A stretch of DNA of 64,000 nucleotides from Actinomycetes bacterium. Its GTDB lineage: Bacteria; Actinomycetota; Actinomycetes; Streptosporangiales; Streptosporangiaceae. Shown one piece after another: positions 56,595 to 56,870 of the stretch. The notes below the pieces were generated by a model that had not been told where the DNA came from, searched no databases, and was given only the letters and a program-made list of their open reading frames with translations. The stretch lies in NCBI GenBank assembly GCA_021793235.1, contig JAJYTD010000006.1:1-64000 (forward strand). The letters run 5' to 3'. Within the stretch, counting starts at the first letter, position 1. Each line of letters starts with the position of its first letter. The translations under genes and the position numbers were made by a program.

Positions 56595-56623
56595 TTGTCC
56601 TGGCAGCGGGTGCGGCGTACTGT
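56595..56623 (+). promoter_or_regulatory. Near-consensus promoter of the micro-ORF element
   Basis: TTGTCC (-35, 56595-56600) and TACTGT (-10, 56618-56623) are separated by exactly 17 bp. It is among the best housekeeping-type promoters visible in the window. It drives transcription into the element starting near 56630, only a few bases before the Shine-Dalgarno. Confidence 0.7.
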
Positions 56624-56635
56624 CGGACCCACGCA

Positions 56636-56651
56636 GGAAAGGAGGTGGTCC
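56636..56651 (+). promoter_or_regulatory. Extended Shine-Dalgarno sequence
   Basis: GGAAAGGAGGTGGTCC is complementary, apart from one G-U-tolerant position, to essentially the whole 3' end of bacterial 16S rRNA. Ordinary sites in this window match 5-7 bases. It lies 5 bases before the GTG of a 12-codon ORF. Confidence 0.7.
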
Positions 56652-56656
56652 TGACA

Positions 56657-56695
56657 GTGAAGACGTCGAGGACTTGCGAGGTGTCCGCCCGCTAG
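56657..56695 (+). CDS. 12-codon micro-ORF after an extended Shine-Dalgarno
   Basis: GTG 56657 to TAG 56695 encodes MKTSRTCEVSAR. Support comes from the strong upstream promoter, the exceptional ribosome-binding site with 5-base spacing, and the fact that the ORF ends inside the left arm region of a conserved-looking hairpin (56680-56742). It may be a regulatory leader or a way to load ribosomes onto a structured RNA rather than a functional peptide. I do not recognise a named family. Confidence 0.55.
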   Translation: MKTSRTCEVSAR

Positions 56696-56742
56696 GGCGA
56701 CACGAGGAATCGGATCGCTCTGGCGAATCCACAGCGGACACC
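56680..56742 (+). ncRNA. Stem-loop overlapping the micro-ORF end
   Basis: GGTGTCCGC (56680-56688) and GCGGACACC (56734-56742) are perfect 9-bp arms closing a 45-nt loop. The left arm is the end of the micro-ORF, so ribosomes translating it would block the hairpin. That arrangement is typical of translation-coupled RNA switches (inference). Confidence 0.5.
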
Positions 56743-56744
56743 CA

Positions 56745-56817
56745 GACCCCGGGCGGCCGGACCTTGTCCATCCGGCACGGCTCTGCCGCGAAAGCGGTGG
56801 CGGCCACGCCCGGGGTC
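56745..56817. terminator. Second hairpin, probable bidirectional terminator
   Basis: GACCCCGGGCG (56745-56755) pairs perfectly with CGCCCGGGGTC (56807-56817). The loop contains a further CCGC-GAAA-GCGG stem. It lies between the micro-ORF transcript and the convergent nitrobindin-like gene and can end both. Confidence 0.6.
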
Positions 56818-56870
56818 CGACATGCCCGTTGGCGGATAGGTCCGTCGACCGGCTGCCGAGCGCGGACCGC

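Follow-up and report, generated by a model that had tools for sequence, protein, structure and literature searches.

A Streptosporangiaceae member of the Ms_IGR-5 family of small RNAs with a conserved mini-ORF, and a possible role for ribosome passage in switching its structure

The window analyzed here is a stretch of 64,000 nucleotides at the start of contig JAJYTD010000006.1 (positions 1 to 64,000, forward strand; assembly GCA_021793235.1), from an actinomycete in the family Streptosporangiaceae. Near its 3' end, a compact element on the plus strand lies next to a Fur-family gene, a THAP4-type heme-binding (nitrobindin-like) gene and a folate-binding GCV_T-type gene, and the neighboring gene is convergent. 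The putative promoter (56595 to 56623) comprises a -35 element, TTGTCC (56595 to 56600), a 17-nucleotide spacer and a -10 element, TACTGT (56618 to 56623), with an A-rich stretch immediately upstream. A comparison of upstream regions reveals that the TTG...TANNNT layout recurs 5' of homologues. The promoter is followed by an extended Shine-Dalgarno sequence, a GTG-initiated mini-ORF of 12 codons and two hairpins, which we call P2 and P3. Reading of the sequence, together with an inverted-repeat search, places every part of the element where the original prediction had put it, including the promoter hexamers, the 16-base Shine-Dalgarno site and the ORF. The two tandem perfect hairpins in that prediction were recovered by the independent search as perfect inverted repeats of 9 bp (56680-56688 with 56734-56742) and 11 bp (56745-56755 with 56807-56817).

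The latter repeat supplies the arms of P3, a terminator-type hairpin at 56745 to 56817 whose predicted fold has a z-score of -4.4. The 195-nucleotide transcript as a whole has a predicted folding energy of -108.2 kcal/mol (z = -5.4), and none of 200 shuffled sequences was as stable. A generic sigma-70 promoter scan and a scan for T-run terminators gave no match at the element, because the promoter hexamers are poor matches to the consensus and no run of T residues follows the terminator hairpin.

Although the original prediction assigned the element to no named family, cmscan matches positions 56631 to 56825 to the whole model (1 to 184) of RF02471, Ms_IGR-5, with a score of 86.4 bits (E = 2.3e-19; gathering cut-off, 45 bits). 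The locus adds a member to this Rfam family of small RNAs, which is known from Mycobacterium and Streptomyces. Expression has been reported for the homologues of S. lividans (PMC8079986), S. avermitilis (PMC8780764) and M. smegmatis (PMC10454040). The literature searched yielded no M. tuberculosis name for the RNA and no paper on its mini-ORF.

Of 60 relatives, 53 carry RF02471. The family also occurs in 222 of 345 genomes of the class and, with other classes represented, in 54 of 297 genomes of the phylum, almost always as a single copy. None of 14 control genomes, among them Corynebacterium glutamicum, contains a match. Because many small-genome actinobacteria as well as C. glutamicum lack it, the RNA is dispensable in some lineages. 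Two matches each occur in genomes G016 (where they are adjacent, G016:C299:989-1297), G114 and G351, and these are possibly duplications or split matches. No match to the element was found in a plasmid search. The sequence AAGGAGGTGRTCC has just two sites in the 4.8-Mb source assembly, one at the element and the other within a coding region. This other AAGGAGGTGGTCC (L245, G000:C47:515182) encodes NKEVVLYLFGTPGQ inside a GTPase-like gene, and was rejected as a second genomic copy.

The genes around Ms_IGR-5 RNAs are not conserved. The Fur gene adjoins the RNA only within the family of the source organism and among close relatives in the order. The nitrobindin-like gene stays adjacent in one other, mycobacteria-like family, and elsewhere both flanks differ. 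In 41 neighborhoods, the downstream genes differ in family and in strand, and the lack of a common downstream gene makes attenuation in cis unlikely. The varying downstream genes, and a family match that spans the entire transcript, agree with the original view of a stand-alone small RNA of roughly 190 nucleotides, rather than a leader. In contrast, its suggestion of a metal- or redox-controlled RNA was not supported, given the restricted Fur adjacency.

The extended Shine-Dalgarno sequence, GGAAAGGAGGTGGTCC (56636 to 56651), can pair with the 16S rRNA tail GGAUCACCUCCUUUCU over 16 uninterrupted positions, of which two are G-U. The tail was read from four relatives, because the source assembly has no assembled 16S gene. 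The pairing energy of -29.3 kcal/mol is the strongest among 18,280 sequence windows sampled here, and is close to the family median of -29.5 kcal/mol. In the predicted fold, GGACT (56670 to 56674) within the ORF can alternatively pair with the GGTCC end of the Shine-Dalgarno sequence. No same-branch changes link these two sites in the covariation test, and thus this alternative is proposed from its energy and from the cross-table.

The mini-ORF (56657 to 56695; 12 codons plus TAG, MKTSRTCEVSAR) was compared across 194 to 195 loci, or 161 after dereplication. About 119 of the 195 came from a search pattern that fixes GGAY and GAGGTG but leaves start and stop free, so the constancy of those two motifs counts only in copies found by the Rfam model. 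In the 161 loci, the distance from the Shine-Dalgarno sequence to NGGAY spans all three phases (34, 88 and 39 loci). An in-frame start codon is nonetheless located exactly four codons upstream of NGGAY in 151 loci, and three, five or six codons upstream in seven more. A stop codon occurs at a fixed place in 160 of the 161 (by type, TAG in 139 loci, TGA in 12, TAA in 10 and TGG in none). The exception, L111, is on a contig of a Chloroflexi metagenome-assembled genome, and has the Shine-Dalgarno, GGAY and GAGGTG pattern, but its frame is cut short (WTSEV-stop) and lacks a start codon. It is probably a chance match.

Among the copies found by the Rfam model, 93 were scored, and six others that the script mislocated were regular on inspection. 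All 93 keep the frame, contain GAGGTG and have a stop codon five codons past the start of GAG. Their start codons are ATG (37 copies), TTG (34, about 37 percent), GTG (12) and the near-cognates ATC, CTG, ATT and ACG (10 in total). Nearly every copy in Actinomycetota has a frame of 12 to 15 codons 3' of the giant ribosome-binding site. Copies from other classes have a longer ORF, and in some of them GGACC is off by one base relative to GAGGTG, although the frame is intact. The near-cognate starts CTG, ATT and ATC are frequent in L225-L240, which belong to other classes of the phylum, and also occur in L050. Such starts are reminiscent of infC-type genes, and suggest sensitivity to IF3 or to the quality of initiation.

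Translation of the mini-ORF is supported by this conservation and by published ribosome profiling of mycobacterial homologues. In both M. abscessus and M. smegmatis, ribosome reads map to MS_IGR-5, with the authors' own caution that footprints may stem from other ribonucleoproteins (PMC4974804).

By contrast with the frame, the encoded peptide drifts. Across the family, codon 5 is NGG (Arg, Trp or Gly), codon 6 is AYN (Thr, Met or Ile) and codon 7 is NGY, with Cys, Arg, Ser, Gly or Glu at position 7. Codons 8 and 9 are always GAGGTG (Glu-Val), which at the source locus occupies positions 56678 to 56683 and forms a second Shine-Dalgarno-like hexamer nine bases 5' of the stop codon. What is kept is bases, most of which are paired, while the residues change class. 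This pattern suggests that selection acts on the RNA and on its being translated, and seemingly not on the product. A Cys-containing micropeptide had been proposed earlier, but the drift at position 7 leaves no conserved Cys in the mini-ORF, and Cys sensing was rejected.

The left arm of P2, GGTGTCCGC (56680 to 56688), falls within codons 8 to 11 and pairs with the right arm, GCGGACACC (56734 to 56742), which resembles the 16S anti-Shine-Dalgarno sequence. In homologues, the position of the right arm was set by an anchor, yACC preceding the C-rich arm of P3, and complementarity to the left arm was not used. Pairs 1 to 4 are formed in all 174 copies so located, where pairs 1 to 3 fall within letters fixed by the anchor. 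Outside the anchor, seven of eight left-side changes at pair 7, and all four at pair 8, are accompanied by a compensating change on the same tree branch. These compensatory changes indicate, at the level of sequence comparison, that P2 is a real helix. The original prediction had expected a conserved Shine-Dalgarno sequence and ORF, and compensatory changes in the first hairpin, and all of these are seen across the family.

A pseudoknot is also predicted, in which GGAYN in ORF codons 5 and 6 pairs with the terminator-loop sequence NRUCC. Copies with GGAC have GUCC, and copies with GGAU have AUCC. For five of eight changes in GGAY, the loop carries a compensating change on the same branch, whereas 0.6 were expected, and none of 3,000 simulations reached this number. 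The neighboring pair has 94 Watson-Crick cells against about 50 expected (p = 0.0007), the covariation of the outermost pair is not significant, and two register controls for the pseudoknot gave no covariation. Deep copies combine GGACC with GGUCC. At the source locus, the strands are GGACT (56670 to 56674) and the P3 loop GUCC (56766 to 56769), and the fifth pair is a T-T mismatch that leaves a four-base core, GGAC:GUCC. The trees used for covariation were built from the RNA itself with the ORF motif masked and the loop unmasked, which limits the pseudoknot test.

The curated RF02471 consensus structure includes neither P2 nor the pseudoknot. Its first stem, which pairs the Shine-Dalgarno end with codons 10 and 11, was not upheld, because at most two of its six pairs are Watson-Crick in the register tested. 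These results point to a revision of the RF02471 consensus structure. The conserved frame, the peptide drift, P2 and the pseudoknot appear to be new, in that they are undescribed in the literature searched, which does not include the original discovery paper (Li et al., RNA 2013).

Between the ORF and the right arm of P2 is a conserved linker, UGGCGAAUCC (56721 to 56730), which was recognized by column conservation and is predicted to be unpaired from position 56726. Pairing of the linker with rRNA was rejected, as the four loci containing 16S genes have no stretch complementary to GGCGAATTCC or GGCGAATCCC, and a single 8-base match (L244) is at chance level.

We consider it about an even bet that Ms_IGR-5 is a stand-alone regulatory RNA of about 195 nucleotides, whose working step is the translation of the mini-ORF and not the peptide. 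A 30S subunit would dock through the extended Shine-Dalgarno sequence and start at an often weak codon. The moving ribosome would then open the pseudoknot, which involves codons 5 and 6, and subsequently P2, whose left arm is codons 8 to 11. At the stop codon, the ribosome would cover the left arm of P2, and thereby free the right arm (NCACCC) and the UGGCGAAUYCC linker, which together are likely the active site. With poor translation, P2 and the pseudoknot would remain closed. The RNA could thus sense ribosome traffic and toggle between two forms, closed and open, the second of which most likely base-pairs to other RNAs or is targeted for degradation.

Footprint-constrained folding is consistent with this scheme, as P2 persists when the ribosome is initiating and disappears when it is terminating, in which case about half of the right arm is left unpaired. 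The ORF is also about one ribosome footprint long, and the Shine-Dalgarno-like hexamer precedes its stop. For these reasons, closed and open forms set by ribosome passage are favored. Since GGAY can pair with the Shine-Dalgarno end as well as with the loop, the alternative structures would be in competition, and the sequence of steps is a guess. Comparison of homologues shows the membership, frame, peptide drift, P2, pseudoknot and non-conserved neighbors, and we infer that ribosome passage probably switches the shape of the RNA in the direction described. The earlier idea of a ribosome-loading sensor fits this anatomy.

The extreme Shine-Dalgarno sequence, with which the transcript all but begins, could also be explained without any switch. 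In this unlikely scenario, the Shine-Dalgarno sequence and ORF only keep ribosomes close to the 5' end and so shield the RNA from nucleases, as with STAB-SD elements, while the 3' part is an ordinary antisense RNA. Actinobacteria do possess the 5'-to-3' exonuclease RNase J. However, a bare Shine-Dalgarno sequence would suffice for protection, yet frame, start and stop are all kept, and the ORF is woven into P2 and the pseudoknot. The 16-bp duplex with the 16S tail, the TTG starts (about 37 percent), the near-cognate starts (10 of 93) and the placement of GAGGTG at Shine-Dalgarno spacing 5' of the stop could also reflect a trap or sponge for 30S subunits, which would slow ribosomes and tune translation capacity. 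This is quite improbable, because a single-copy RNA must be very abundant to count against the ribosome pool, and because covariation in P2 and the pseudoknot would be left unexplained.

That the 12-residue peptide is the product that matters is very improbable. The ORF is conserved and has Glu-Val at codons 8 and 9 everywhere, but this dipeptide is always encoded as GAG-GTG, which is part of P2 and of the Shine-Dalgarno-like hexamer. Other positions change class (R/W/G at one, C/R/S/G at another) while the pairing bases stay. Control of the first hairpin by ribosome position would also be expected of a leader-peptide attenuator of a downstream gene. We regard this explanation as scarcely credible, and it was rejected: there is no conserved co-directional downstream gene (the neighbor at the source locus is convergent), terminator-type P3 follows directly, and conserved regulatory codons are lacking, with no run of any one codon and with position 7 varying among C, R, S, G and E and position 5 among R, W and G.

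Returning to ribosome-dependent switching, a more far-reaching version is tentative and rather doubtful. Ms_IGR-5 could be a switch as old as the phylum for which the ribosome is the ligand. By shuttling over the footprint-long ORF between two Shine-Dalgarno-like anchors, a single ribosome would open the pseudoknot and then the hairpin, and the exposed strand resembling the anti-Shine-Dalgarno sequence would act on other mRNAs. If true, such a switch would turn translation status into regulation in trans. Ms_IGR-5 has so far been listed as an expressed, conserved RNA without a function. On the present evidence, what stays constant in it is a translated frame, whose peptide drifts and which two covarying pairings tie to the RNA's 3' half. 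This would add a class of small RNA governed by its own translation.

Several known systems share parts of this design. Ms_IGR-5 as curated has the same 5' extended Shine-Dalgarno sequence, terminator hairpin and length of about 190 nucleotides, but P2 and the pseudoknot are missing from it, and a description of the ORF was not found in the literature searched. In leader-peptide attenuators, such as mycobacterial cysteine-responsive leader ORFs, a ribosome on a short ORF likewise decides the fate of a hairpin, whereas here the downstream gene is absent, the peptide is not conserved and the terminator is independent. The STAB-SD elements of Bacillus (aprE and cryIIIA type) share a very strong 5' ribosome-binding sequence, but need no ORF, and here start, frame and stop are kept. 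RF01867 (CC2171), a Caulobacter small RNA, resembles the element in its 5' extended Shine-Dalgarno sequence, GAAAGGAGGUGAUCC, and its 3' hairpin. Its match to positions 56629 to 56721 scores 21.1 bits, below the cut-off of 75, and covers only the Shine-Dalgarno sequence and one hairpin. The resemblance is possibly a convergent design. Dual-function, or translated, small RNAs also combine a Shine-Dalgarno sequence, a short ORF and a structured RNA in one molecule. A short ORF kept in frame, as in such RNAs, was found here, and a conserved peptide was not, in that the peptide drifts and the pairing bases stay. Their second function is the peptide, whereas in Ms_IGR-5 it is the act of translation that is kept.
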